Shown: in pieces, positions 5,088 through 39,082 of the stretch
Layout: every line of letters starts with the position of its first letter
Position numbering within the stretch: position 1 is the first letter of the stretch
IMG/VR virus record: IMGVR_UViG_3300027969_002554
Coordinates: 1-45,609 of that record
DNA length: 45,609 bases
Strand: one strand, 5' to 3'
Origin: a virus
The notes under the pieces: model-generated
Seen by the model: only the letters and a program-made list of their open reading frames with translations
What the model was told of the DNA's origin: nothing
The model's database searches: none
Program-made: the position numbers and the translations under genes

Positions 5088-5095
5088 GATAAATA
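5088..5095 (+). promoter_or_regulatory. T4-type late promoter GATAAATA
   Basis: GATAAATA ends 6 nt before the ATG at 5102, which has no Shine-Dalgarno sequence. The element lies in the loop of an inverted repeat with arms TATAAA (5081-5086) and TTTATA (5097-5102). It predicts a leaderless late transcript. Confidence 0.55.
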
Positions 5096-5101
5096 CTTTA
5101 T

Positions 5102-5710
5102 ATGAAAACCGCAGACAAATTTTTTGACAACGTTGATTATGTAAGCATAATTGACACAGTAAAAGGTATATTTACCAGCGACGGATCAATGGCTGTATTA
5201 CTAGACTACGAGCGAGTACTAGATGAAGCCGATTTATACGCATTTAAAAACTGGGAATTAGGTGAATTAGTCCAAGGTCCTGACGTTAAACGCTACACAG
5301 TAGCATGTATATTCATGTTCCCTTACAAACTAATGCCCGATCCACGTGGGGCTAAACGTTTAGCCGGTGTAGGATGTAAAATCAAGTTCAAAAAGACTAA
5401 ACTTAAAGTACCTGTTGCTGTTGAAAATCCAGAGGATTACATTCCTGGTACAAGATATCCAAAGACTGCTATGCGTGAAGTGTGGCTAGTTTATATAGAA
5501 ATGCCTAAAGAATTGATGAACGATATACGTGAAGGATCAATTGATTTAGCAGGTCAAAATATTGACTTGAATGAATTAGATGATGCTTATGATAACGATT
5601 TAGATGAAGAAGATACCAATGAAGCAGACGATCAACGGGATGATATGATGAATCAAACCGGTACTGCAGCTCCTGGATTAGGGATGCCTCCTCCATTACC
5701 GGCAATGTAA
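5102..5710 (+). CDS. Conserved acidic-tailed phage protein
   Basis: 202 residues. The N-terminal 140 residues form an alpha/beta domain (SMAVLLDYERVLDEADLY, then VKRYTVACIFMFPYKLMPDP and REVWLVYIEMPKELM). The tail is highly acidic (DDAYDNDLDEEDTNEADDQRDD) and ends in a Pro/Met/Gly-rich stretch GLGMPPPLPAM. No enzyme motif is seen. It is the first gene of a late-promoter operon that includes a second acidic protein and a holin-like gene. A structural or assembly role is a guess from that context. Confidence 0.6.
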   Translation: MKTADKFFDNVDYVSIIDTVKGIFTSDGSMAVLLDYERVLDEADLYAFKNWELGELVQGPDVKRYTVACIFMFPYKLMPDPRGAKRLAGVGCKIKFKKTKLKVPVAVENPEDYIPGTRYPKTAMREVWLVYIEMPKELMNDIREGSIDLAGQNIDLNELDDAYDNDLDEEDTNEADDQRDDMMNQTGTAAPGLGMPPPLPAM

Positions 5711-6883: not shown

Positions 6884-6912
6884 TTGACTTAACACACAAA
6901 TTGTGTTATACT
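6884..6912 (+). promoter_or_regulatory. Sigma70-type promoter, TTGACT-N17-TATACT
   Basis: The -35 TTGACT (6884-6889) and -10 TATACT (6907-6912) are separated by 17 bp, close to consensus. The predicted start at about 6919-6920 coincides with the ATG at 6920, which lacks a Shine-Dalgarno sequence. Confidence 0.75.
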
Positions 6913-11130: not shown

Positions 11131-11134
11131 AAGT

Positions 11135-11142
11135 GATAAATA
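11135..11142 (+). promoter_or_regulatory. T4-type late promoter GATAAATA
   Basis: GATAAATA lies 24 nt before the ATG at 11167. Predicted initiation near 11148 leaves a short leader that keeps the ribosome site GGAG (11155-11158). The element itself is the 5' arm of a hairpin that covers that site. Confidence 0.6.
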
Positions 11143-11166
11143 CTCTAATAAAATGGAGTATTTACC
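11135..11166 (+). promoter_or_regulatory. RBS-masking hairpin present only in read-through mRNA
   Basis: GATAAATACTC (11135-11145) pairs with GAGTATTTACC (11156-11166) with 10 Watson-Crick pairs and one A-C mismatch around a 10-nt loop. The 3' arm contains most of the ribosome site GGAG and reaches the base before the ATG. The 5' arm contains the late promoter, so a late transcript lacks it and the ribosome site stays free. T4 genes such as soc and e are known to use this early-off, late-on logic. Confidence 0.6.
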
Positions 11167-11331
11167 ATGGCAAAGATTGTAACAGAATCAATCGTAATCA
11201 CTTTTAGTAAGATAGTAAAAGACACTGATTCAGGCACTAGTATCACTAGTCCTGAAATACAAGCGGCTTTAGAACAAGTTGCCCAAGAATTAATTGGCGA
11301 TTCAGTAGTAGTTGAGGTTGTAAAAGCATAA
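11167..11331 (+). CDS. 54-residue conserved small protein
   Basis: Reads MAKIVTESIVITFSKIVKD, then a Thr/Ser-rich turn and SPEIQAALEQVAQELIGDSVVVEVVKA. The order strand-helix-strand suggests a compact domain. It has GGAG 8 nt before the ATG, and its stop overlaps the ATG of the next gene (TAATG), so the two are coupled. Late expression is implied by the promoter and the hairpin switch. The function is unknown; the neighbour looks like a virion protein. Confidence 0.65.
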   Translation: MAKIVTESIVITFSKIVKDTDSGTSITSPEIQAALEQVAQELIGDSVVVEVVKA

Positions 11332-11718: not shown

Positions 11719-12948
11719 ATGAAAACTTTAGTTATTATGCCAGGAGGCTTTCATCCATTTCATGCCGGACACGCATCGTTATATCAAGACGCGGTAAAGG
11801 CATTTCCCGGCGCTGATGTATATGTAACCGCTAGCAATGACACTAGTGAAAGATCCTTCCCCTTCGCAATTAAAGAAAAACTAGCAAGAGTTGCAGGCGT
11901 ACCAGCCGGACATTTTGTTCAAGTTACCAGTCCTTTTAGTTCAGAAGAAATAACTAGTAGATATGATCCCGATGATACAATATTAATTTTTGTAAAGAGT
12001 GAGAAAAATTCTAAAAATGGTTCCGACCCTGAAGGTCCGTTCCCAGCAGAAGTTGATCCTGCTACGGGAAAATTACCTCTTGCTAAAAGAGGTAAAAGAA
12101 AAGGACTACCGGTAAGTGATACATTAAAGTATTATGCCGGTAATGAAAAAAATCTTCAACCTATGAGTCGTAATAGATATATCGCATATTTACCAACTGT
12201 ACCGTTTGGTCCTGGTATTAAGAGTGGAAGTGAGTTCCGTGCATTATGGGATAGATTTACTAAAGTTTTATTAGATCCAAAATCAACTCCCGAACAAAAA
12301 TCTAAAGCAACAGAACTTAAAAAAGAATTGGTTATGAACATGTATCCTGCAACTCAGGAGAATCCTAGATTAGCTGTCAATGTAGTTAAACTTATGGATA
12401 AAGGTATGAGCAATCCATTAACTAATAAATCAGATTTAGCAGAAGGATTATTAAATGAATTTGTTCCGCCAAGTAGCGGTGGGGGTGGCGAGAATGATAG
12501 AAATCGTAGAATAAGAAAACTATTAGAAATTGCTATACAAGTAGCAAAGCAAAAAAATGTTGATGAATTGGGTATGATACATGCTATGAATATGATAGCA
12601 GGTGATGACTTTTTTAGTGTAGCAGTTGAAGGTATACTACCAGATATAACAGATAAAGAATATATGTTCGTACTACAGAGTGCCTATAAAACAGTAAAGC
12701 AAGGTTTGGCGGAAGCAGAAAAAACAGCCAGAGTCTTTCACCCGCAATATGTAGATGTATACTTCTTAGATGGACCTAGAAGAACTCCTATTCTAGTTAA
12801 TCGTAAAGTACCATATAATTTAATTGATAGATATTTAGAAGTAGCTATTAAAAAATACAATCTACAACAGGGTCGTTTTGAGTTTAGAAACGCAGAAGAA
12901 GATCCAGTTAAGGTTACCGAAAGTGTGGATTATTTAGAAGAAAAATAA
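11719..12948 (+). CDS. Cytidylyltransferase-like nucleotidyltransferase with cleavable C-terminal modules
   Basis: 409 residues. The N-terminal domain begins MKTLVIMPGGFHPFHAGH, with the HxGH nucleotidyltransferase motif (H15, H18). This motif activates a nucleotide alpha-phosphate in enzymes such as NMN adenylyltransferase, PPAT and CTP transferases; the substrate here is unknown. After about residue 235 the protein becomes modular: DLAE (242) and GLLNE (247) followed by FVPPSSGGGG. A helical segment then follows, QGLAE (332), and a C-terminal domain ending near VTESVDYLEEK. These hydrophobic-x-Glu junctions match sites in neighbouring mosaic proteins and resemble T4 prohead-protease sites. 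I infer a packaged enzyme trimmed during head maturation. Confidence 0.75.
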   Translation: MKTLVIMPGGFHPFHAGHASLYQDAVKAFPGADVYVTASNDTSERSFPFAIKEKLARVAGVPAGHFVQVTSPFSSEEITSRYDPDDTILIFVKSEKNSKNGSDPEGPFPAEVDPATGKLPLAKRGKRKGLPVSDTLKYYAGNEKNLQPMSRNRYIAYLPTVPFGPGIKSGSEFRALWDRFTKVLLDPKSTPEQKSKATELKKELVMNMYPATQENPRLAVNVVKLMDKGMSNPLTNKSDLAEGLLNEFVPPSSGGGGENDRNRRIRKLLEIAIQVAKQKNVDELGMIHAMNMIAGDDFFSVAVEGILPDITDKEYMFVLQSAYKTVKQGLAEAEKTARVFHPQYVDVYFLDGPRRTPILVNRKVPYNLIDRYLEVAIKKYNLQQGRFEFRNAEEDPVKVTESVDYLEEK

Positions 12949-13000
12949 TTTGACCCCCTTGTTTTGATGTAAATAATACTATCTTAACAAGAGGATCAAA
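12949..13000 (+). promoter_or_regulatory. RBS-masking hairpin with late promoter in its loop
   Basis: TTTGACCCCCTTGTT (12949-12963) pairs with AACAAGAGGATCAAA (12986-13000): 13 of 15 positions, with two C-A mismatches and a 22-nt loop. The 3' arm holds the ribosome site AGAGGA and the A of the ATG. A late-like element TGTAAATA sits at 12968-12975 in the loop, with initiation expected near 12981, downstream of the 5' arm. A weak TTGACC-N18-TAATAC host-type promoter (12950-12979) would likewise start inside the loop. Read-through mRNA should be silenced; mRNA from either local promoter should not. Confidence 0.65.
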
Positions 13001-13944
13001 TGGCAACAAAGAAAACAACCGAATCAACAGCAACTGCTGTAAAAACAACTAAAGCAAACAAGTCAGAAAAAACAGTTCCTGTAGAAAAAGTACAAGAAAT
13101 TGCTGAACAGGCTGCGAAAGAACAAGCACAACAGGCTCCTGCAGCCGGTCAAGTTCAGGTTAACGTAGACTACCTAAAAACTACTAAAGTACATATCGCT
13201 ATGCCATGTTATGGTGGTATGCTAACAGAATCAACATTTATGTCTTTTATCAAGTGGGCTAATACAGCTCGTCAACTTGGTATTGATTGGACATTAGAAA
13301 CAATGGTTAACGAAAGTCTTATCAGTCGTGCCCGTAATACACTAACTGCTAAGTTCCTAGATATGCCAGACGCAACACATTTATTCTTTGTTGACGCTGA
13401 CATTGGCTGGGAGCCATGGCATCTACTAGTTCTATTGAACCGTGACGTTGATGTTATTGGTGGTTTGTACCCAATGAAGACAATGCCAATCAAATGGGTT
13501 GTTAATGGCTTTGAAGGTGCTGAAGAAGGACCAGATGGATTACAAGAAGTATCTAAAGCAGGTACAGGTTTCTTATTAATGAAGAAACATGTATTTGAGA
13601 AATTAAAATCTCATCCGGCGGTTAAGCAATATAAAAACGACATTGGATTAGATCCAAAGTATGACCAACACTTAAAGACCTACTTTGATACAGCAGTTCG
13701 TCAAAATCGTTACTACAGCGAAGACTGGACATTCTGTGAAAACTGGCGTGATATTGGTGGTAAGATTTGGATGGACAAACGTGTGTTGCTACGTCACTCT
13801 GGATCATATGTATTCTGTCAGGAAAATCAAGAACACTTAATGAAAACAATTGGACCTATGTTTATACAAGAACAGCAAGAAAAATTTGGAATTAAGTTCA
13901 CCGATAAAGACGGTAACGAAATAAAGAAAATAACCCCTGCATAA
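13000..13944 (+). CDS. GT-A-fold glycosyltransferase
   Basis: 314 residues. The first 50 residues are a Lys/Thr/Ala/Gln-rich disordered tail. The GT-A core begins with VHIAMPCYGG and has the metal/nucleotide motif HLFFVDADIGW with DxD at D132-D134. It continues through IGGLYPMKTMP and TGFLLMKK to SEDWTFCENWRDIGG, typical of GT2-like enzymes whose acidic SEDW acts near the active site. The acceptor may be DNA base, virion protein or cell-surface glycan. It is expressed from its own late promoter with a hairpin-controlled ribosome site and is closed by a strong terminator. Confidence 0.75.
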   Translation: MATKKTTESTATAVKTTKANKSEKTVPVEKVQEIAEQAAKEQAQQAPAAGQVQVNVDYLKTTKVHIAMPCYGGMLTESTFMSFIKWANTARQLGIDWTLETMVNESLISRARNTLTAKFLDMPDATHLFFVDADIGWEPWHLLVLLNRDVDVIGGLYPMKTMPIKWVVNGFEGAEEGPDGLQEVSKAGTGFLLMKKHVFEKLKSHPAVKQYKNDIGLDPKYDQHLKTYFDTAVRQNRYYSEDWTFCENWRDIGGKIWMDKRVLLRHSGSYVFCQENQEHLMKTIGPMFIQEQQEKFGIKFTDKDGNEIKKITPA

Positions 13945-13974
13945 TAAAGCCCCGAAAGGGGCTTTATTCTTTTT
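13943..13974 (+). terminator. Strong intrinsic terminator
   Basis: Perfect 11-bp stem AATAAAGCCCC / GGGGCTTTATT with a GAAA tetraloop, followed by CTTTTT. It overlaps the stop codon of the glycosyltransferase gene and lies two bases before the next late promoter. Confidence 0.92.
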
Positions 13975-13975
13975 A

Positions 13976-13983
13976 GATAAATA
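13976..13983 (+). promoter_or_regulatory. T4-type late promoter GATAAATA
   Basis: GATAAATA starts two bases after the terminator's T-run and ends 4 nt before the ATG at 13988. Either the mRNA is leaderless or the in-frame ATG at 14018 is the real start. Confidence 0.6.
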
Positions 13984-13987
13984 CTCT

Positions 13988-15616
13988 ATGGACTTAAAAG
14001 AATTACATTCATTCAAAATGTCAGATGCAGTGACATTTCACGATAACCTCAATCCTAAACTGTTTCGTGGACAACATCTATGGCCTGAAGTAGAACTACA
14101 ACTAAAAACAATAGCACAAGACTTTCTACAAGAGATGGGTATACATGATTTGGATGTACGTGATATCACTATATCCGGATCTAACGCAGCCTACAGTTAT
14201 ACAGACCATAGTGATTTAGATTTACATATCTTAGTCAATATGAAGGATTTGCCAGATGATGATATTTACCATGAATTCTTCAAAGCTAAAAAAGATTTAT
14301 ACAATGATTCACATGATATTACTATTAATAGAATTCCGGTAGAATTATACATACAAGATGCGGCAGAACCTGTCACTAGTTTAGGTGAATATAGTGTTAA
14401 AGATAATAAATGGTTGCGTATGCCTGCAAAACGTAGAGCAAACTTTGACCAAACAGCTACTAAATCAAAATATATAAAACTATTAGACATTATTGATACA
14501 ACATTACAATCTAATAAGATAGGCAAAGTCAATAAAATATTGAAGAAGATTAAACAATATCGTCAAGCTGGATTAGATAAAGGTGGTGAGTTTAGCCCTG
14601 AAAATCTAGCATATAAAGCATTACGTAGCCGTGGATATATTACAAAACTTTATGATTTAAGAGATAGGTTACATAGCAAACATTTAAGTCTGAATGGAAT
14701 GTATTCTAATGTTAGTGAAAGTTTTGATAAACCGTATAAACTACTCAGATGGGAAAAGGGTGACTTTGGTGATGTAGACGCAATAGCACGATTAGATGAC
14801 GGAACTTTTCTAAGTATCATGTTCAAGAAGGGATACAGTAAAGATACAAAAGAGGAAACATGGAGTGTTGTGTTTTGGAGAAACAATAGTCAAGAAGTCA
14901 CGGGAGAAGGTGATTCTCAACGAGTATTTGCCACTGTGTTAAATGCTATACAAACATTTATTGAAAAGTATACGCCCAATAAAATAATCTTTGCGGCAAA
15001 TAAAGTAGATGACACTGGACACGACACACAAAGCAGAGCTAATCTATATGACAAATTAGTTCAGCGTTATGCCAAGTCTTGGGGATTTAAATCATTTAGA
15101 GCAGATAATGGCAATAAAGTTATCTACGAATTGAGTAGGATAAAGAAAGATGTAGCAGAAGAATCGTTTGATGGCATAGAAATCTCTTTAGAAAAAGAAA
15201 ATGATGAGATTATGGTGACAGCTATGGCAAATGGTAAAGAGTTAGGTCAAGTATTATTTGTAGAAGAAAATGGATATTTGTTACCACAAGATTTAGAAGT
15301 AGATGAACGTTACCGTGGTCAGGGTATTGCCTCTACTATGTATAACTATGTAAAAAGTCAAGGATATAAAATACGCCGTAGTGGTCAACAAACAGATTCA
15401 GGCGCCGGATTCTGGAGCAAACATCGCCCTGATCAAAATGTCTGGGAAGCATCAGGCTATATTCCTAGTGAAAAAGAGAAAAATAAACCACAATTTAGTA
15501 CAGCATTAACATCAGATGTTAAGCCGGACAGTATCAAAAAGAACGCAAAAGCATTCTATTGGAATACTAGTAGAGCAGGTATTCCACCAACAGCAAAGCC
15601 ATCAGGCAAAATCTAA
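13988..15616 (+). CDS. Nucleotidyltransferase-GNAT acetyltransferase fusion with inter-domain cut-like sites
   Basis: 542 residues in three parts. The N-terminal part (about 1-240) has a Pol-beta-type nucleotidyltransferase signature: GSNAAY with S65, then SDLDLHI with D76 and D78. The middle part (about 245-390) begins after NVSE (E244) and is not recognised (GDVDAIARLDDGTFLSIMF and a C-terminal FRADNGNKVIYEL). The third part begins after DVAE (E391). It is GNAT-like, with the acetyl-CoA motif RYRGQGIASTMY at about 441-452 and a downstream W-rich end. Both junctions are hydrophobic-x-Glu followed by (E)SFD, so the same linker type separates all domains. I infer a cargo polyprotein. The ATG at 14018 is an alternative start. 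Confidence 0.7.
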   Translation: MDLKELHSFKMSDAVTFHDNLNPKLFRGQHLWPEVELQLKTIAQDFLQEMGIHDLDVRDITISGSNAAYSYTDHSDLDLHILVNMKDLPDDDIYHEFFKAKKDLYNDSHDITINRIPVELYIQDAAEPVTSLGEYSVKDNKWLRMPAKRRANFDQTATKSKYIKLLDIIDTTLQSNKIGKVNKILKKIKQYRQAGLDKGGEFSPENLAYKALRSRGYITKLYDLRDRLHSKHLSLNGMYSNVSESFDKPYKLLRWEKGDFGDVDAIARLDDGTFLSIMFKKGYSKDTKEETWSVVFWRNNSQEVTGEGDSQRVFATVLNAIQTFIEKYTPNKIIFAANKVDDTGHDTQSRANLYDKLVQRYAKSWGFKSFRADNGNKVIYELSRIKKDVAEESFDGIEISLEKENDEIMVTAMANGKELGQVLFVEENGYLLPQDLEVDERYRGQGIASTMYNYVKSQGYKIRRSGQQTDSGAGFWSKHRPDQNVWEASGYIPSEKEKNKPQFSTALTSDVKPDSIKKNAKAFYWNTSRAGIPPTAKPSGKI

Positions 15617-15640: not shown

Positions 15641-15648
15641 GATAAATA
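15641..15648 (+). promoter_or_regulatory. T4-type late promoter GATAAATA in a small hairpin
   Basis: GATAAATA is 23 nt before the ATG at 15672. It forms part of the perfect inverted repeat GTATTT-TGAT-AAATAC (15634-15649). Initiation near 15654 leaves a short leader with GGAAA before the start. Confidence 0.55.
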
Positions 15649-15671
15649 CACTATTAGTATGGAAATCCGTT

Positions 15672-17246
15672 ATGAAAATCAAACAAATCACTGAAAATAC
15701 AACAGCAGGGTCAATAGCTACAGTAGAAACCTCATTAGGTGGTACACAAAGTAGAGGAAATCCTAGCATATATGGCGGAAAGAAAGTAGGAACTCTATTC
15801 AAGGGTAAAAAGACTAAAGCCCCATATGCCAATAGCATCAATGAAAGTGCTGAACTAAGTGAAGCACAACTAGAAGAAGATGATGTTATTGTTGTTCCTG
15901 GACAAGGTCGTAGTCGTAAAAATGGATTTGTCCCACATGGACAAAGTCGTGTAGACCATGAAGTTGAAATGGCACGTAGTGATTTATTCAGTGCCGCAAA
16001 GAATGCTCAACAAGTTTATTCAATGATTAAAGATATTAGTGAAGATGAGGGTCTTGATGGTTGGGTACAAGAAAAGATTATCAAAGCTAATGACTATCTA
16101 AACACTATACGTGAATACTTAGAAGGTAAACAAGTTCAAGGTGTAACAGAAAACAATCAAAGAGGTGATTCACTTGTTACTGACGCATTAAAAATAATGC
16201 GTGGTTCAGATTATCAAATGGATCCTGTAAGAGCAATAAAGACTGTGCTTGGGGAAAGAGAATACAATAGCCGTCGTGGTTTTTATAATTTCTATGTAAA
16301 ACAACTAAGGGATATGTATGATCAGGAAGGTCTAGCGGAAGGTTCCAGAAACGCATATTTGAAACATAACAATTTAGTTGATATAGAAAAACCACTGGCT
16401 GGACTAAAAAGTGAGTTTGAGAAATTTTTACAAACGCATGACCCTAAAGAAAAACAAAAATACCAACAAGGTATAAAACAACGAATCAAATCAGAACCAA
16501 TGTTAGGACCAAAAGGCGTATTACCAGAGCAAGGTGTGGCGAAAGGCTATCAGTTAGATGAAGGTGCCGTTGAAACAATTACGGCATTAGTCAAGAAGAT
16601 CCCTGGCATTGGCAAATATTATCAAATGGCTCAACAATACAAGCCACAACTGATTCAAATTCTAAAAACTAGTAAATCCGGTAAAGAAGTTAAACAAAAA
16701 ATGGAACAGTTGGCAGCAAGTCAGTCTGTACCGGTCGCTGAATCAGGTATGATGAAACAATTAGGTGGTTTGGCAGTTGGTGGTGGAAGTATTTTATCTA
16801 CAATGTGGATGAATGCTATGGGAATGATTGATGGTGTGCTAGCACATGCGGCAGCAGGTGAGGTCGGTGGTGCAGTAGCATCCGGTAGTATCTTAGGATT
16901 AATTCCTGTAACACTAATGTTGTTTGCGGCAATGTTATTGTTCAAAGGATCACAACAAAGCAGTAATGAAAAAGCACAGGCATTTCAAGCACAACGTGGT
17001 CAGCAAGGTATGGCAGAAGGCAAACGTAATTTGAAATGTGTATGTAAGACACATGGTACTATGCAATGTCCAGTACATACACCAAAAGATATTGAAGTAA
17101 TAGAAGGTGCTAAAGTAGACCGTATGGTTAAGCATGTAGCACAATCAGAAAAGAAACTTGGTCATAGTAAAAAAGAAGCAGAGAACATTGCTTGGGCTAC
17201 CGCTAACAAGCGTGGCATGTTAGATAACAAGAATAAGAAAGCGTAA
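15672..17246 (+). CDS. Mosaic internal-protein polyprotein with a membrane module
   Basis: 524 residues. The start at 15672 (MKIKQITE) is chosen because the late promoter lies just upstream; the frame is open further 5' only inside the previous gene. Hydrophobic-x-Glu junctions occur at QITE (8), QGVTE (160), EGLAE (223), PVAE (357), QGMAE (449) and VIE (478). QGVAK (291) looks like a decayed site. Modules differ sharply: a Gly/Lys-rich piece (GGKKVGTLFKGKKTKAP), a helical piece (GWVQEKIIKANDYLNTIREYL), and a segment at 358-449 with two hydrophobic helices (ILGLIPVTLMLFAAMLLF). A Cys pair piece (KCVCKTHGTMQCP) and a C-terminal helical AENIAWATANKRG module complete it. No enzyme motif. I infer head-packaged cargo cut by the prohead protease. 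Confidence 0.65.
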   Translation: MKIKQITENTTAGSIATVETSLGGTQSRGNPSIYGGKKVGTLFKGKKTKAPYANSINESAELSEAQLEEDDVIVVPGQGRSRKNGFVPHGQSRVDHEVEMARSDLFSAAKNAQQVYSMIKDISEDEGLDGWVQEKIIKANDYLNTIREYLEGKQVQGVTENNQRGDSLVTDALKIMRGSDYQMDPVRAIKTVLGEREYNSRRGFYNFYVKQLRDMYDQEGLAEGSRNAYLKHNNLVDIEKPLAGLKSEFEKFLQTHDPKEKQKYQQGIKQRIKSEPMLGPKGVLPEQGVAKGYQLDEGAVETITALVKKIPGIGKYYQMAQQYKPQLIQILKTSKSGKEVKQKMEQLAASQSVPVAESGMMKQLGGLAVGGGSILSTMWMNAMGMIDGVLAHAAAGEVGGAVASGSILGLIPVTLMLFAAMLLFKGSQQSSNEKAQAFQAQRGQQGMAEGKRNLKCVCKTHGTMQCPVHTPKDIEVIEGAKVDRMVKHVAQSEKKLGHSKKEAENIAWATANKRGMLDNKNKKA

Positions 17247-22194: not shown

Positions 22195-22293
22195 CACACC
22201 TTAGGACCGGTACTAGTTACCGTGGTGTAGGCGGCTTCTGCCTTAAGTTATCCAATTCGCTACTGGACCTTATAAGTGAGCATAAATACTAAT
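22195..22293 (+). other. Structured non-coding spacer
   Basis: 99 nt between the nuclease stop and the ATG at 22294, with local GC higher than its surroundings. A bulged hairpin pairs ACACC (22196-22200) with GGTGT (22224-22228) and CGGTA (22208-22212) with TACCG (22218-22222). A second possible stem pairs TCCA (22251-22254) with TGGA. There is no U-tract, so it is not a simple terminator. I could not fold it as a tRNA. It may be a small RNA, a 3' stabilising structure or a processing site. Confidence 0.35.
22281..22288 (+). promoter_or_regulatory. T4-type late promoter CATAAATA
   Basis: CATAAATA ends 5 nt before the ATG at 22294, which has no ribosome binding site. This supports 22294, rather than the upstream in-frame GTG at 22276, as the start. 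Confidence 0.55.
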
Positions 22294-23247
22294 ATGAGAG
22301 CAATAGAACTATACGAATCAGCCGCAACTGACCTAGCTAAGAAACTTCCTAGCTTAGAGAAGCACGACTATAATACCATTGACAAGTTAATGAAAAAGAT
22401 AGCAAAGAAGCATCGTATAACCGGTGATGCATTACATGATTTATTTGTTAGAAAATATCACAAAACTCCAGACAGTTGGATTAAAGATAAACTAGATGAG
22501 GTTGGAGGACGACATTACAACCCGGATGGTACAACATATCGCGGATCCTATAATAAAATGCCAACATTAAATGATCCTAACGATATTTATAACAGGGCAG
22601 AAAGAGTACCATATAAAGATCCGGCTGGTGAGGAGCCTGCAACAGATGATAGTATTAAACAAATTATTCAAAATGGTTTAGACAGATTAACCGATGACCA
22701 ACGAAAAGTATTAATTTTAAGATTTTGGTATGACATGACATTACAACAGATTGGTGATAGGTTTGACTTGTCTAAAGATAGAATAAGACAAATTGAAGCT
22801 AAAGGATTAAGAAGATTACGAGATTCTGCTAGACATAAAGGATATGATCCCGAGTTATTAAAACCCTATATTACAGAATCTGAACAAGAAGATTTAAATA
22901 ATAATCCTATTGTAAAGAAGTTTCTTGCTTGGACAAGTAAGAAGTTAAATTTAGAAAATACTCCAAAGATAGAGTTTAGTTATGATAGTGATGAAGCACA
23001 AGAAGGACATCATACTGGTAGACATAATCCAGAAACAGGTGAAGTATGGGTTTATTGTGCTAATAGAAACTTGGTAGATATCTTACGTACTGTGTTCCAC
23101 GAATTAGTTCATGTACGTCAAGGCGAATTAAATATGATTAAGCCGGGTGACAGTTATCCAGGTAGTCCAATAGAAGCAGAAGCAGATGTAATGGCTGGAA
23201 AATATATTAAAATATTTGGAAAAGCACATCCGGAAATCTTTCAATAA
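22294..23247 (+). CDS. Sigma region-4-like DNA-binding protein fused to a zinc metalloprotease
   Basis: 317 residues. The N-terminus MRAIELYE|SAAT is a capsid-targeting-like peptide. A segment ITGDALHDLFVRKYHKTPDSW follows. Residues about 129-180 form a sigma70 region-4-like helix-turn-helix: LTDDQRKVLILRFW, then LQQIGDRFDLSKDRIRQIE and KGLRRLRD. A junction PYITE|SEQE (E195) separates a C-terminal metallopeptidase with FHELVH (H269, E270, H273) and EAEAD (about 294-298) supplying a third ligand, similar in style to IrrE/ImmA proteases. No sigma region 2 is present, so it is not a complete sigma factor. If cut at E8 and E195 it would yield separate injected DNA-binding and protease proteins. 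Confidence 0.8.
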   Translation: MRAIELYESAATDLAKKLPSLEKHDYNTIDKLMKKIAKKHRITGDALHDLFVRKYHKTPDSWIKDKLDEVGGRHYNPDGTTYRGSYNKMPTLNDPNDIYNRAERVPYKDPAGEEPATDDSIKQIIQNGLDRLTDDQRKVLILRFWYDMTLQQIGDRFDLSKDRIRQIEAKGLRRLRDSARHKGYDPELLKPYITESEQEDLNNNPIVKKFLAWTSKKLNLENTPKIEFSYDSDEAQEGHHTGRHNPETGEVWVYCANRNLVDILRTVFHELVHVRQGELNMIKPGDSYPGSPIEAEADVMAGKYIKIFGKAHPEIFQ

Positions 23248-34018: not shown

Positions 34019-34708
34019 ATGAGTTATAATAAAACAAAAACAGACCCAGAGTTGGGTCAACAAGTTCATGAACACTTAGTCAAAATGGGCGTTGAAACAC
34101 CTACGTGGGATACACGTGGTGCAAATCTTGATAGAAAAATAAAAATTGAAATCATTACAGAACAATTTCAAAAGATTATGACAACCTTAGGGTTAGACTT
34201 ATCAGATGATAGTTTAATGGATACACCTAAACGTGTTGCTAAGATGTACGTTAATGAAATCTTTTGGGGATTAGACTTTGAAGCATTTCCTAAATGCACA
34301 ACAGTTGACAACAAGATGCAATACAACGAAATGGTTGTAGAGCGTAATGTTAATGTTCAATCTAACTGCGAACATCATTTTGTAGTCATCGATGGATTGG
34401 CTACTGTAGCTTATGTCCCTAAACAAAAAGTTTTAGGGCTTAGTAAGATAAACCGTATCGTAGAATATTTTAGCAAGCGACCTCAAATTCAAGAGAGGTT
34501 AACAGAGCAAATATTTCACACCTTACAGTTCATCCTTCAGACAGAAGATGTTGCAGTTATGATTGATGCACAACACTATTGCGTTAAAAGTCGTGGTGTA
34601 GAAGATACAGGTAGTAGTACTGTTACTTGTCGTTTAGGTGGCGGTTTCAAATCAGATCCTGCGGCACGACAAGAATTCCTACAAATTGCTAACAAAGGTT
34701 GCAAATAA
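34019..34708 (+). CDS. folE: GTP cyclohydrolase I
   Basis: 229 residues. Family motifs are complete: DTPKRVAKMYVNEIFWGL, then SNCEHHF with zinc ligands C117 and H120 and VAYVPKQKVLGLSKINRIV. RPQIQERLT and IDAQHYCVKSRGV with C188 follow. The enzyme makes 7,8-dihydroneopterin triphosphate from GTP, the first step to folate and to 7-deazaguanines. With QueD and QueE downstream it should feed the DpdA DNA-modification route. It has a strong AGGAAGG ribosome site, and its stop overlaps the next start (TAATG). Confidence 0.95.
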   Translation: MSYNKTKTDPELGQQVHEHLVKMGVETPTWDTRGANLDRKIKIEIITEQFQKIMTTLGLDLSDDSLMDTPKRVAKMYVNEIFWGLDFEAFPKCTTVDNKMQYNEMVVERNVNVQSNCEHHFVVIDGLATVAYVPKQKVLGLSKINRIVEYFSKRPQIQERLTEQIFHTLQFILQTEDVAVMIDAQHYCVKSRGVEDTGSSTVTCRLGGGFKSDPAARQEFLQIANKGCK

Positions 34709-34905
34709 TGTTAAAAGACAGACGATTTTTACTAGAACAAGAGATTACCAAAGCGCACGATGAGGCTGCAGCCATGTATTTGGATATTGTCACTCATGAT
34801 AAAGATGTACATAGTCCAGAGTATCAACATCTTAAGGATAAAATTATGAATTTACAGTTTGATCTTAACATTGTAAATCAGTTAATTCACAAAGGACACA
34901 AATAA
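34708..34905 (+). CDS. Small helical protein
   Basis: 65 residues from ATG 34708, which overlaps the folE stop; a TTG nine bases upstream is less likely. The sequence (RRFLLEQEITKAHDEAAAMY, then HLKDKIMNLQFDLNIVNQL) predicts two long amphipathic helices forming a hairpin. No known family. Start and stop are coupled to the neighbours. Confidence 0.6.
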   Translation: MLKDRRFLLEQEITKAHDEAAAMYLDIVTHDKDVHSPEYQHLKDKIMNLQFDLNIVNQLIHKGHK

Positions 34906-35141
34906 TGGGATTTCGTAAACAAATAGACTATAATTCAGTACATCATCAAATCTATATGTCTGGTGTAGAATTACATAGTAACTACAATGATGGATTCAAT
35001 CAATTTGAAATCAAAAAAGACTTACATCGTATTAAATGGTTGATTGATGAGATTATGGCTGATGCCCCCACATTTGTAGGTGAGGATGAATTCTTAAAAG
35101 AACATGAACAAACTAAAATGTGGAGAACACTTTCAAAATGA
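34905..35141 (+). CDS. Small conserved protein
   Basis: 78 residues beginning MGFRKQIDYNSVHHQIYMSG, with a helix IKKDLHRIKWLIDEIMADAP and an acidic C-terminal part. No family is recognised. It sits between folE and a cytidylyltransferase, and its end overlaps the next start (ATGA). Confidence 0.6.
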   Translation: MGFRKQIDYNSVHHQIYMSGVELHSNYNDGFNQFEIKKDLHRIKWLIDEIMADAPTFVGEDEFLKEHEQTKMWRTLSK

Positions 35142-35605
35142 TATTTAATCATATTAAAGAACTTAAGGCACAGGGTAAAAAGATTGGCATTACCTTTAGC
35201 ACGTTTGATATGCTTCACGCAGGTCACGTTGCTATGTTAAGCGAAGCAAAAAATCACTGTGATTACTTGATTTGTGGACTACAAACTGACCCAACAATTG
35301 ATAGACCTGATACTAAAAATAAACCTATTCAAAGTATTGTAGAACGACAGATACAACTTGCGGCTTGTCGTTATGTTGATGAAGTAGTGGTATATCAAAC
35401 TGAACAAGACTTAATTGACTTGTTATTGATATTACCATTAGATGTTCGTATTTTGGGTACAGAGTATGAGGATAAAAACTTTACTGGCCGTAATGAGGGA
35501 GCAGGTCGTGCTATACAAGTAATATTTAATAAACGTGACCACAGTTTCAGCAGTTCAAGTCTACGCAAACGTGTAGCAGAAGCAGAGAAAAACAAAAATG
35601 CCTAA
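35138..35605 (+). CDS. TagD-like cytidylyltransferase
   Basis: 155 residues from ATG 35138. The HxGH motif (DMLHAGHVAML, H27 and H30) and the C-terminal SSSSLRKRV place it in the glycerol-3-phosphate/ADP-heptose type of nucleotidyltransferase. The conserved RILGTEYEDKNFTG block fits too. These enzymes make CDP-glycerol or related activated alcohols. With adjacent kinase-nucleotidyltransferase and glycosyltransferase genes it may supply an activated donor for decorating DNA, virion or cell surface. Confidence 0.8.
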   Translation: MIFNHIKELKAQGKKIGITFSTFDMLHAGHVAMLSEAKNHCDYLICGLQTDPTIDRPDTKNKPIQSIVERQIQLAACRYVDEVVVYQTEQDLIDLLLILPLDVRILGTEYEDKNFTGRNEGAGRAIQVIFNKRDHSFSSSSLRKRVAEAEKNKNA

Positions 35606-36395
35606 AAGAATATTAGTAATGGGTTTACCGGGTGCTGGTAAAACTTATCTAGCACAACATATTGTAGACCACTTACAAGCAGAAAAGAAAAAAGTAAGTT
35701 GGCTAAATGCTGACGATGTGCGTAAGAAGTACAATGATTGGGACTTTAGTACAGAAGGGCGTGTTCGTCAAAGTTTACGTATGCGTGAACTAGCAGATAA
35801 TATGACTGAATGTGATTATGTAATCTGTGACTTTGTTGCACCATTGGTTGAGATGCGTAATAACTTTAAAGCAGATTGGACTGTTTGGGTTGACACTATC
35901 GACAAAGGTCGTTATGAAGATACAAACAAAGCATTTATTCCACCTGAAGTGTATGACTTTAGAATTAATGAACAGAAAAGTGAAAAGTGGAGTGAGTTTA
36001 TTGCCGCACATATATTAGATAACAGACGTAGACCAGTATTTGATTGGCAAAAAGAAACTGTACAGATGTTAGGTCGTTGGCAACCATGGCATGAAGGACA
36101 TCGTAAGTTGTTTGAACGTGCTATTACCAAGACTGGACAAGTAGTTATTCAGATTAGAGATTGTCAAGGTTGGCAAGGAAGTAATCCTTTTGCTATTGAC
36201 CAAGTAAAGAGTTTTATTAAACGTGATTTAGATATGCTATATCAGGGTCAATATGAGATTCAAATTGTGCCAAATATTGTAAATATAACATATGGGCGTG
36301 ATGTTGGATATAAGATTGAACAAGAAACGTTTGATGACGCTACTCATAATATTAGTGCTACTAAAATCCGAAAAAGTTTAGGATTTGGTAAATAA
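35598..36395 (+). CDS. APS-kinase-like kinase fused to a nucleotidyltransferase
   Basis: 265 residues. The N-terminal domain has the P-loop GLPGAGKT (9-16), NADDVRKKY and FSTEGRVRQSLRM, matching the adenylylsulfate kinase fold. The C-terminal domain (about 150-265) has LGRWQPWHEGH with HxGH at H165-H168 and ISATKIR near the end, an NMN-adenylyltransferase-like core. The order kinase then transferase is the reverse of NadR (transferase then ribosylnicotinamide kinase). The substrate is therefore open: NAD salvage, sulfate activation or an unusual nucleotide are candidates. It overlaps the TagD-like gene by 8 nt. Confidence 0.75.
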   Translation: MPKRILVMGLPGAGKTYLAQHIVDHLQAEKKKVSWLNADDVRKKYNDWDFSTEGRVRQSLRMRELADNMTECDYVICDFVAPLVEMRNNFKADWTVWVDTIDKGRYEDTNKAFIPPEVYDFRINEQKSEKWSEFIAAHILDNRRRPVFDWQKETVQMLGRWQPWHEGHRKLFERAITKTGQVVIQIRDCQGWQGSNPFAIDQVKSFIKRDLDMLYQGQYEIQIVPNIVNITYGRDVGYKIEQETFDDATHNISATKIRKSLGFGK

Positions 36396-36421
36396 AGATA
36401 GCGGTCTCGGCGTCATCCCGC

Positions 36422-36450
36422 TTTACAAACTCTGCTGCCTATGCTATAAT
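36422..36450 (+). promoter_or_regulatory. Sigma70-type promoter, TTTACA-N17-TATAAT
   Basis: TTTACA (36422-36427) and TATAAT (36445-36450) have a 17-bp spacer. The short leader contains AGGAGA (36458-36463) before the ATG at 36469. It starts an operon with the QueD-like gene. Confidence 0.75.
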
Positions 36451-36468
36451 ACAACATAGGAGAACACA

Positions 36469-36951
36469 ATGGCAAACAAAAAATTCTTTTCAACAAAGAC
36501 ATACAGACAAATAGGGCCTGTCGCATACCGTCAATGGCGTGCCGACAGTCATTGTAACTTAATTCATGGCTATGCTATGAGTTTTCACTTTGAGTTTGAG
36601 GCTGACACACTAGATGCCCGTAACTGGGTAACTGATTTCGGTGGATTACGCCCTCTTAAAGATAAACTAGAAGAATGGTTTGACCATACTCTATTAGTCG
36701 CACAAGATGACCCCATGCGTGAACATCTATTAGAACTAGGTAGATTGAAATTAGCTAAGATTACCGAAGTAGAACGCACTGGTTGTGAAGGTATATCTGA
36801 CTTCTTATATGAATACATTAACACAATCTTTTTACCTAACTGCGGTAGTGAAGAAGCTAAACGTGTATGGTGCTGTAGAGTAGAGGTCCGTGAGACTGAT
36901 AGCAATATGGCAGGACGTAGTGGTCATAGAGAAGATAGAGAGTTTGAATAA
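36469..36951 (+). CDS. queD: QueD-like 6-carboxytetrahydropterin synthase
   Basis: 160 residues. DSHCNLIHGYAMSFHFEFEA contains H28, the nucleophilic C29 and H33. VTDFGGLRPLKDKLEEWFDHTLL matches the QueD DF/FDH segment. In E. coli QueD the zinc ligands are H16, H31 and H33 of an HGH motif; here the motif is HGY with Y35, so one zinc ligand is replaced or supplied by H40. The enzyme turns dihydroneopterin triphosphate from FolE into CPH4. It is transcribed from its own host-type promoter, and its stop overlaps the next gene. Confidence 0.82.
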   Translation: MANKKFFSTKTYRQIGPVAYRQWRADSHCNLIHGYAMSFHFEFEADTLDARNWVTDFGGLRPLKDKLEEWFDHTLLVAQDDPMREHLLELGRLKLAKITEVERTGCEGISDFLYEYINTIFLPNCGSEEAKRVWCCRVEVRETDSNMAGRSGHREDREFE

Positions 36952-37367
36952 TGTTGAAAACAGAAATAGTAGATAAGGTAGGACATACCTTAGTAGACAT
37001 ATTTCATAGGCTTGCATTGTTTGGTATTGGTGCCGCAACAGTATGGGCTGCCGGTTGGACTTTTGCTGAACTGTTTCAAAAACATCACGCTACAGTTGGT
37101 GACCTGTTATTAATGTTTATCTATTTGGAAATAGGTGCAATGGTAGGCATTTATTTCAAGACCAATCATATGCCTGTCAGGTTCCTGCTATACATTGCAA
37201 TAACAGCACTGACACGACATATGGTAGATATAATGAGTCATCAGCCAATTAATGTTGTTGAAATGTTAGCTGTAGCCGGCTCTACATTTGTTATAGCAAT
37301 AAGCGTATTAGTTATTAGATATACTAGCGCAAAATATCCTAGTAACAATAAAGATGAGGTAGCTTAA
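36951..37367 (+). CDS. PsiE-like membrane protein
   Basis: 138 residues with four hydrophobic segments. The central FIYLEIGAMVGIYFKTNHMPVRFLLYIAITALTRHMVD, quoted in parts as YLEIGAMVGIYF and VRFLLYIAITALTRHM, is the hallmark of the PsiE (phosphate-starvation-inducible) family. PsiE's biochemical function is unknown. With PhoH at 4148 it makes a second phosphate-stress-associated gene in the window. It is coupled to the queD stop. Confidence 0.72.
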   Translation: MLKTEIVDKVGHTLVDIFHRLALFGIGAATVWAAGWTFAELFQKHHATVGDLLLMFIYLEIGAMVGIYFKTNHMPVRFLLYIAITALTRHMVDIMSHQPINVVEMLAVAGSTFVIAISVLVIRYTSAKYPSNNKDEVA

Positions 37368-37413
37368 ATGCTTGAAACAATTTGTCAAATTGTACTATCA
37401 GGGAAATATTAAA

Positions 37414-38046
37414 ATGAGTTTTTTAGTAGCAAATTTACCACCAGTAAAATGTTTTGTTCGTAGAGAATTTCTGTATGACTTTGAGAAAGGTCACGGTGAA
37501 CTCGAACCTTGCTGGTGGATATCAATAAAATCTCAACGTAGCCAAGCATTTCGTATTGAATCATATTTAAATCAGTATGGTGCACTATATGATAAACTTC
37601 CATTACACGCATATTGTTGGAAACCCATAGAAGGTGAACCGTATCCTTTAGACTTTTTACAATTATGGAATAGTATGTCTTATGATATTACTGTAATTAA
37701 AAAAGCAATGATAGCAAATATGAGATGTAAAATTAAAATGAAAGATGGGTCGTGGTTAGAAGGAGAATATCTTTTTACTGTTGATTCCGCACATCCAGAT
37801 TTTAATACAATAGATTGCGGTCATAGTGAAGATGTTGAGGATCACAAAAGTTTTAACTTTATTAAATGTGATAATGGTCAATTTGCCGCACAACCAAATA
37901 ATCGTATTGTTATTTTAGAACCAGCAAGTAATCCTAAAGAAATGAAGATACCAGATTTTAATGTCGCTACTACTAGATGGAATGTTGAAATGGATCCAAA
38001 ATGGGACTATGGACTGCCAGAAAACAAATGGAGAATGAATGAATAG
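37414..38046 (+). CDS. Conserved phage protein of unknown function
   Basis: 210 residues from ATG 37414; an in-frame non-ATG start at 37372 is possible. The conserved-looking N-terminal half reads SFLVANLPPVKCFVRREFLYDF, quoted in part as NLPPVKCFVRREFLYDF, then WWISIKSQRSQAFRIESYL and PLHAYCW. The middle has RCKIKMKDGSWLEGEYLFTVD. The end is rich in Asp, Asn and Trp. No catalytic motif is recognised. It overlaps the next gene by 8 nt and lies between queD and queE. Confidence 0.6.
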   Translation: MSFLVANLPPVKCFVRREFLYDFEKGHGELEPCWWISIKSQRSQAFRIESYLNQYGALYDKLPLHAYCWKPIEGEPYPLDFLQLWNSMSYDITVIKKAMIANMRCKIKMKDGSWLEGEYLFTVDSAHPDFNTIDCGHSEDVEDHKSFNFIKCDNGQFAAQPNNRIVILEPASNPKEMKIPDFNVATTRWNVEMDPKWDYGLPENKWRMNE

Positions 38047-38230
38047 TTTAGAAAAAATCTGGGCTAGAGCAACCGGTCATTTAATGGGTAACACCGATGA
38101 TGACAGGCCTGATGTACCTATTCTTACATTGGGTGAAGCAAGGATCGCATTGTTCCTAAAAACTTTCTGGGTGGTGCTACATGTGATAACATGTTGTTTC
38201 ATTATAGCAAATACAATACATAATTGGTAA
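38039..38230 (+). CDS. Small single-span membrane protein
   Basis: 63 residues. The N-terminal 35 residues are soluble (NSLEKIWARATGHLMGNTDD). Residues 37-60 form one transmembrane helix (IALFLKTFWVVLHVITCCFI). No family is recognised. It might be a lysis or superinfection-exclusion factor, as small phage membrane proteins often are; this is not supported beyond size and topology. Confidence 0.55.
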   Translation: MNSLEKIWARATGHLMGNTDDDRPDVPILTLGEARIALFLKTFWVVLHVITCCFIIANTIHNW

Positions 38231-38233
38231 AAT

Positions 38234-39082
38234 ATGAGTAACATAAAAATTTCAGAACTATTCTATAGTATTCAGGGTGAAGGTAGATATATGGGAGTTC
38301 CCTCCGTGTTCTTACGAACATTTGGATGTAACTTTAAATGTGCAGGCTTTGGCATGCCTAAAGGTGAAGTAAGTAAAGAAGTAGAAGATATTGCCGCAAG
38401 GGTTCACTATTATGATGATTATAAAAAATTACCGTTGGTCAGTACAGGATGTGATAGCTATGCTTCATGGGATCCTAGGTTTAAGCATCTTAGTCCTGTT
38501 CGCCCCACCGATGATATTGTTGACAACATTATGGCTATGCTTCCTCACAATCGCTGGATGGATGAGCACCTTGTCATCACTGGTGGAGAACCTCTACTCG
38601 GTTGGCAAAGAGCGTATCCAGATTTACTTTCAAATGAAAAAATGAGAGCATTGAAAGAGATTACTTTTGAAACTAATGGTACACAGGAACTTAGTCAAGA
38701 CCTCGCAATATATTTACAGAAGTGGAAAATTAACAGAGAAAAGAATGCATTAACATTTAGTGTTAGTCCTAAACTAAGTATCAGTGGTGAGAAGTGGGAA
38801 GAAGCTATTTGCCCTGATATCATTCGTCAATATGAAAGTATCGGCTTTGTTTATTTGAAATTTGTTATCGCTACTAGTGAAGATGCATTAGAAGCAGATA
38901 AAGCTGTACAAGCGTTTCGTACTGGTGGGTTTAGGGGTCCGGTATACTTTATGCCGTGCGGTGGTGTAGAAAGTGTTTATAACTTAAACGCAAAGAATGT
39001 TGCTATTGAAGCAATGAATCGTGGTTATCGTTATAGCGATAGACTACAAGTACCACTGTTTAAGAACGAATGGGGCACTTAA
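38234..39082 (+). CDS. queE: QueE-like 7-carboxy-7-deazaguanine synthase (radical SAM)
   Basis: 282 residues. The start ISELFYSIQGEGRYMGVPSVFLR, quoted in part as FYSIQGEGRYMG, is the QueE hallmark. It is followed by RTFGCNFKCAGFG with C32 and C36, and LVITGGEPLL. The normal third cluster Cys is missing at its usual place. C73 in the TGCDSYASW block is the likely third ligand, so the cluster loop is strongly expanded. The enzyme makes CDG from CPH4. The stop overlaps the next start (TAATG). No queC follows. Confidence 0.88.
   Translation: MSNIKISELFYSIQGEGRYMGVPSVFLRTFGCNFKCAGFGMPKGEVSKEVEDIAARVHYYDDYKKLPLVSTGCDSYASWDPRFKHLSPVRPTDDIVDNIMAMLPHNRWMDEHLVITGGEPLLGWQRAYPDLLSNEKMRALKEITFETNGTQELSQDLAIYLQKWKINREKNALTFSVSPKLSISGEKWEEAICPDIIRQYESIGFVYLKFVIATSEDALEADKAVQAFRTGGFRGPVYFMPCGGVESVYNLNAKNVAIEAMNRGYRYSDRLQVPLFKNEWGT

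Follow-up and report, generated by a model that had tools for sequence, protein, structure and literature searches.

Genes and features at the locus

The window analyzed here is a 45,609-nt stretch of viral DNA (IMG/VR record IMGVR_UViG_3300027969_002554), and all coordinates refer to it. The target gene starts at position 13000, and the genes upstream of it are co-directional. The following features were assigned:

11719-12948, plus strand: upstream gene, nucleotidyl/cytidylyltransferase-like, 409 aa, product ending in DYLEEK (PHROG 395, E 9e-4; TIGR00125, E 1e-3)
12949-12963, plus strand: 5' arm, complementary to the ribosome-binding site (13/15 pairing; arm-swap and shuffle tests)
12968-12975, plus strand: candidate T4-type late promoter box TGTAAATA, between the two arms (TAAATA in relatives, its genome-wide position, gp55-like sigma factor in relatives)
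12981-12999, plus strand: predicted leader of the late mRNA, without the 5' arm (position based on the geometry of T4 promoters, PMC2988020, and on the peak of TAAATA at -10/-11 of leaderless-type starts)
12986-13000, plus strand: 3' arm, with the SD-like AAGAGGA and the A of the ATG at 13000 (pairing, fold)
13000-13944, plus strand: target gene, 314 aa, glycosyltransferase-like, with a GT-A-type DADIG motif (phrog_1574; weak profile matches)
13943-13975, plus strand: intrinsic terminator closing the target gene (11-pair stem followed by CTTTTT)

The 314-aa product matches phrog_1574, a family of no assigned function. Weak profile matches were obtained with A197 (PDB 2c0n; E 0.006) and with the GT domain of mannosylglycerate synthase (MGS_GT; E 0.11), and the motif LFFVDADIGW is invariant. 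The AlphaFold model had a pLDDT of 39.6, too poor for a structure search, probably for lack of alignment diversity. The initial annotation called the gene a glycosyltransferase outright; on the strength of the weak matches and the DADIG motif, a GT-A-like glycosyltransferase is likely, and we use the name in that qualified form. The proteins encoded upstream are variable among relatives, yet nearly all of them share a short conserved C-terminal tail, DYLEEK or DYLDEK.

A hairpin that would mask the ribosome-binding site

The 5' arm (TTTGACCCCCTTGTT) starts directly after the stop codon TAA of the upstream gene (12946-12948) and forms Watson-Crick pairs with the 3' arm (AACAAGAGGATCAAA) at 13 of 15 positions, the two unpaired positions being C opposite A. 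The region 12940-13020 has a minimum free energy of -17.6 kcal/mol (z -4.7), and none of 200 shuffled sequences folded as well. To estimate accessibility, we calculated the cost of holding the region around the start codon (-14 to +3) free of base pairs. Freeing the ribosome site was predicted to require 15.3 kcal/mol on read-through RNA versus 1.7 kcal/mol on late-start RNA, the latter taken to begin 6 nt after the TAAATA box. When just the 35 nt upstream of the box were scrambled, the cost fell to 3.9 +/- 1.8 kcal/mol, and none of 1000 such shuffles masked the site as well as the native sequence. On read-through RNA the SD and AUG are thus predicted to be sequestered in a helix, and compensating changes in relatives conserve it (see below). 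We also considered a terminator. No T-run follows the hairpin, however, and this reading was rejected; no terminator was found between the upstream and target genes, the real and strong one being located after the target gene.

The candidate late promoter box and the gp55-like sigma factor of relatives

In T4, a late promoter is an 8-bp box located one helical turn before the transcription start, and there is no -35 element (PMC2988020). The box TGTAAATA differs by one base from the T4 consensus TATAAATA. By itself, TGTAAATA is not rare in the window (TNTAAATA occurs 15 times versus 27 expected); its weight comes from its position and its conservation in relatives. In G001, a 348-kb relative whose leader is nearly the same, TAAATA is concentrated at two distances before called starts, -24 to -28 and -10/-11. 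Judged from sequence, TAAATA is positioned genome-wide in relatives like a late promoter. With the start predicted from the T4 geometry, the promoter at 12968-12975 is so placed that late RNA would lack the 5' strand of the hairpin.

A gp55-like late sigma factor was detected in six of the nine relatives searched, which include six of the seven that exceed 200 kb (phrog_12791, E 3e-71 to 2e-74; phrog_234, E about 1e-22); it was not found in two contigs of ~115 kb or in G002. The gp55-type factor is thus a finding in relatives. The window, a fragment of 45.6 kb, carries a sigma-like gene of a different type (22294-23247). Its product, a sigma-factor-like protein with a C-terminal extension containing HELVH, differs from the gp55-like sigma of the relatives. 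T4-type late transcription also uses the sliding clamp gp45 as activator and gp33 as co-activator. No gp45 homologue was matched by sequence, and the Pfam search was uninformative because it matched nowhere.

Conservation of pairing in relatives

With the 314-aa product as query, IMG/VR yielded 80 loci, of which many lie on contigs of 100-525 kb; their leaders reduce to 49 distinct ones. TAAATA was located 27-36 nt before the ATG in 49/49 of these, nearly always as GTAAATA. The stop-to-ATG gap is 46-57 nt in most relatives, and the neighbor is usually nucleotidyltransferase-like. The pattern of TGTAAATA, GAGGA and ATG occurs about once per genome, and twice in a single contig that has two copies of the gene. 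In 44 of the 49 leaders, the predicted cost of opening the ribosome site was 7.5 kcal/mol or more, and the mean over all 49 was 11.2 kcal/mol for the full leader versus 2.1 kcal/mol when truncated at the late start. Five leaders (L049, L051, L062, L069 and L076) had no convincing hairpin; thus, the predicted switch is common in relatives rather than obligatory.

Column-wise covariation on the MAFFT alignment was set aside in favor of arm swapping, because the register of the arms shifts. Each leader's 5' part was combined with the 3' parts of all the others, and the mean cost was 11.2 kcal/mol for native versus 8.0 kcal/mol for swapped arms, with none of 20,000 permutations reaching the native mean. 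The result held (0/20,000 each) in sets of 27, 19 and 12 leaders thinned to 5' arms that differed at more than 4, 7 or 10 of 28 positions. Inner contiguous pairing also exceeded permutation (11/20,000). The pair just inside the constant CCTCT/AGAGG core was T-A in 15, C-G in 3 and A-T in 2 of 25 leaders, and other registers were observed, such as GGTCCTC/GAGGACC in L045 and ACTCCTCT/AGAGGAGT in L043. Since native arms outperformed swapped ones even among the 12 divergent leaders, it is the predicted pairing, and not the sequence of the arms, that is conserved.

More distant homologues of the product occur in T4-like phages of Sinorhizobium, Caulobacter, Stenotrophomonas and Rhizobium, three of them adjoining sliding-clamp genes. 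These homologues begin 5-32 nt after the upstream gene or overlap it, so that scarcely any space is left for the layout, and the candidate switch therefore appears to belong to the present lineage and not to the protein family.

Proposed mechanism and alternative explanations

We propose that the leader is a cis-acting RNA switch whose state is set by the transcription start site. RNA reading through from the upstream gene would contain both arms, and pairing of the SD and start codon should block binding of the 30S subunit. RNA from the late promoter between the arms would begin at about 12981 without the 5' arm, leaving the ribosome site free. Translation would then depend almost entirely on RNA from the gene's own late promoter. 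As a prediction, we regard such a start-site-dependent switch at gene 13000 as highly probable; the RNA start, the translation block and the read-through itself are steps that we infer. Both a sigma-70-like site (6884-6912) and late-type boxes (7718 and 11137) are located upstream, so that read-through may take place early, late or at both times.

Most of this scheme had been put forward in the initial annotation. The 15-nt arm after the upstream stop codon that it paired with the ribosome site and start codon was confirmed at 13/15, and the late element that it placed between the arms is there, with its TAAATA invariant in the 49 leaders. Its view that late RNA, without the 5' arm, cannot form the hairpin is supported by the comparative evidence and the predicted opening costs. 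Its summary of the locus as "early-off, late-on" is supported as regards the hairpin and the late promoter; "early" is the less secure part, as the region upstream has late boxes besides the sigma-70-like site, and "off on any read-through transcript, early or late" is the safer wording. This bears on a variant explanation in which the same switch serves another purpose, namely to insulate the gene from all read-through and tie its output to its own promoter, independent of timing. The two late-type boxes belong to the same gene run, and no terminator protects the gene from it. However, published accounts of the T4 precedents have them act on read-through from early or middle times (PMC3014915, PMC2988022), and we consider insulation a real but rather unlikely purpose.

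Other explanations dispense with the switch. It is improbable, in our view, that the palindrome is a DNA operator, bound over the promoter by a dimeric protein that regulates transcription, although an inner repeat (GATGTAAATA...TATC) does overlap the promoter box and the two strands fold equally well. The plus- and minus-strand folds were equally stable, the minus strand being richer in G-U pairs. As no pattern of G-U pairs marks out the sense RNA, the strand comparison does not separate an RNA structure from a DNA palindrome. What disfavors the operator is mainly the turnover of the arms: their sequence, their register and the spacing of 27-36 nt between box and ATG vary, whereas complementarity to the SD is kept, and at other genes unrelated arm sequences give the same layout. 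It is even less probable that positions 12950-12977 form a host sigma-70 (early) promoter, TTGACC-16-AATAAT, with the complementarity a by-product of the -35 element and the SD. This site matches the consensus at 10 of 12 positions, but such matches occur in the window at chance frequency (55 versus 51.8 expected), and its TTGAC hexamer is not conserved in relatives, whereas TAAATA is invariant; the reading was rejected on these grounds. That the inverted repeat arose by chance is hardly credible. Arms pairing at 13/15 or better with a gap of 15-40 nt occur at four separate places in the window, so a few repeats of like spacing do exist; of these, only 12949-13000 is at a gene start, and the 5' arm is not repeated elsewhere in the window. 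The 1000 shuffles and the compensating changes argue against chance, which the arm-swap test refuted at the level of the family. The start-site-dependent RNA switch remains our preferred explanation.

Comparison with known switches

Previous studies showed that in T4 genes e, soc and 49 read-through RNA folds the SD and AUG into a helix, and that a late promoter TATAAATA in the hairpin region gives RNA without the 5' strand (PMC3014915). I-TevI, I-TevII and segB of T4 and mobE of Aeh1 likewise combine a late promoter with a masked ribosome-binding site (PMC2988022), a layout similar to that in the window. When much the same calculation was applied to the T4 leaders, the costs for full and late RNA were 15.2/0.7 kcal/mol for e, 15.8/2.6 for 49, 15.2/0.7 for I-TevI, 13.3/0.3 for I-TevII, 16.2/5.5 for segB and 9.0/0.3 for soc. 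The predicted opening cost of the window leader is of the same size as those of e, soc and 49, and the precedents that the initial annotation had named (soc and e), together with 49 and I-TevI, were apt and behave similarly in computation.

There are, however, differences. The window gene is glycosyltransferase-like, belongs to another phage lineage and has the box TGTAAATA. In e, 49 and I-TevI, much of the 5' arm consists of the promoter box itself. In the window, by contrast, the SD is masked by a separate arm that precedes the box, and the latter lies in the loop or inner stem. The relative G001 carries the layout at GIY-YIG and HNH endonucleases, like the homing endonucleases of T4 and Aeh1; the window gene is no endonuclease. 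Thus, the kind of switch is known from T4, and what is new here is the gene and the lineage, that of large T4-like environmental phages.

Predicted masking hairpins at other genes

We scanned three relatives (G001, G003 and G005) for late-box genes, with the box at -22 to -38, whose ribosome site is masked by sequence that precedes the expected transcription start. Masking was defined as an opening cost of at least 9 kcal/mol with at most 3 of 60 mononucleotide shuffles as good. By this definition, 24 of 139 late-box genes versus 6 of 150 genes without a box were masked (Fisher p 2e-4), and about 17% of leadered late genes in these relatives carry masking hairpins. The mean shift across all boxed genes was small; therefore, masking hairpins characterize a subset and are not the rule. 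The masked genes of G001 include those for a baseplate wedge protein, a virion structural protein and the GIY-YIG and HNH endonucleases. The same scan applied to T4 recovered segB, I-TevII and gene 26.

Similar layouts were noticed elsewhere in the window. At 15643-15672 a late box and a hairpin over the ribosome-binding site precede a gene of 524 aa (12.5/4.1 kcal/mol; 0/300 shuffles), a layout also found in G001 and G003. At 11134-11169, upstream of a 54-aa ORF (11167) conserved in G003 and G005, the late box at 11137 (GATAAATACTC) is itself the 5' arm; its partner over the SD is GAGTATTTACC, an arrangement like that of T4 e and 49. The same layout, but with a sigma-70-type promoter, is present at 36420-36471, where TTTACA-17-TATAAT overlaps a pair of arms, CCTATG/CATAGG, and these arms lie over the SD of a PTPS-like gene (36469). 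The surrounding region (34019-39082) contains GTP cyclohydrolase, PTPS/QueD-like and QueE-like genes together, which suggests 7-deazaguanine synthesis, perhaps for DNA modification.

Candidate leaderless late mRNAs

The second TAAATA peak, at -10/-11, is formed by 31 genes in G001, 32 in G005 and 16 in G003, counted for first-ATG starts, versus about 0.2 expected per position; in T4 the count is 0. If transcription starts about 6 nt after the box, as in T4, RNA of this group would begin on the A of the ATG, and such boxes would give leaderless late mRNAs without an SD. We found no earlier report, in the literature searched, of late promoters placed for leaderless mRNAs. The window has TAAATA 10-12 nt before an ATG at 503-516, 5090-5104, 13978-13990 and 22283-22296 (genes 514, 5102, 13988 and 22294), the last of which precedes the sigma-like gene 22294 itself.

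It is tempting to view these as two interchangeable routes to translation from the late promoter only, with masking hairpins at leadered genes, and with -10/-11 boxes where late mRNA would be leaderless and read-through RNA would offer no SD. We put this forward tentatively, rating it at somewhat less than an even chance.

Implications

A switch that had been described in a few genes of T4 and Aeh1 is here predicted for an uncultivated lineage of large phages. Our analysis adds evolutionary evidence, as dozens of relatives show joint change in the two arms, and supplies a genome-wide list of candidate late genes under hairpin control. The leaderless class is the more unusual by-product and may represent a second route to the same logic.
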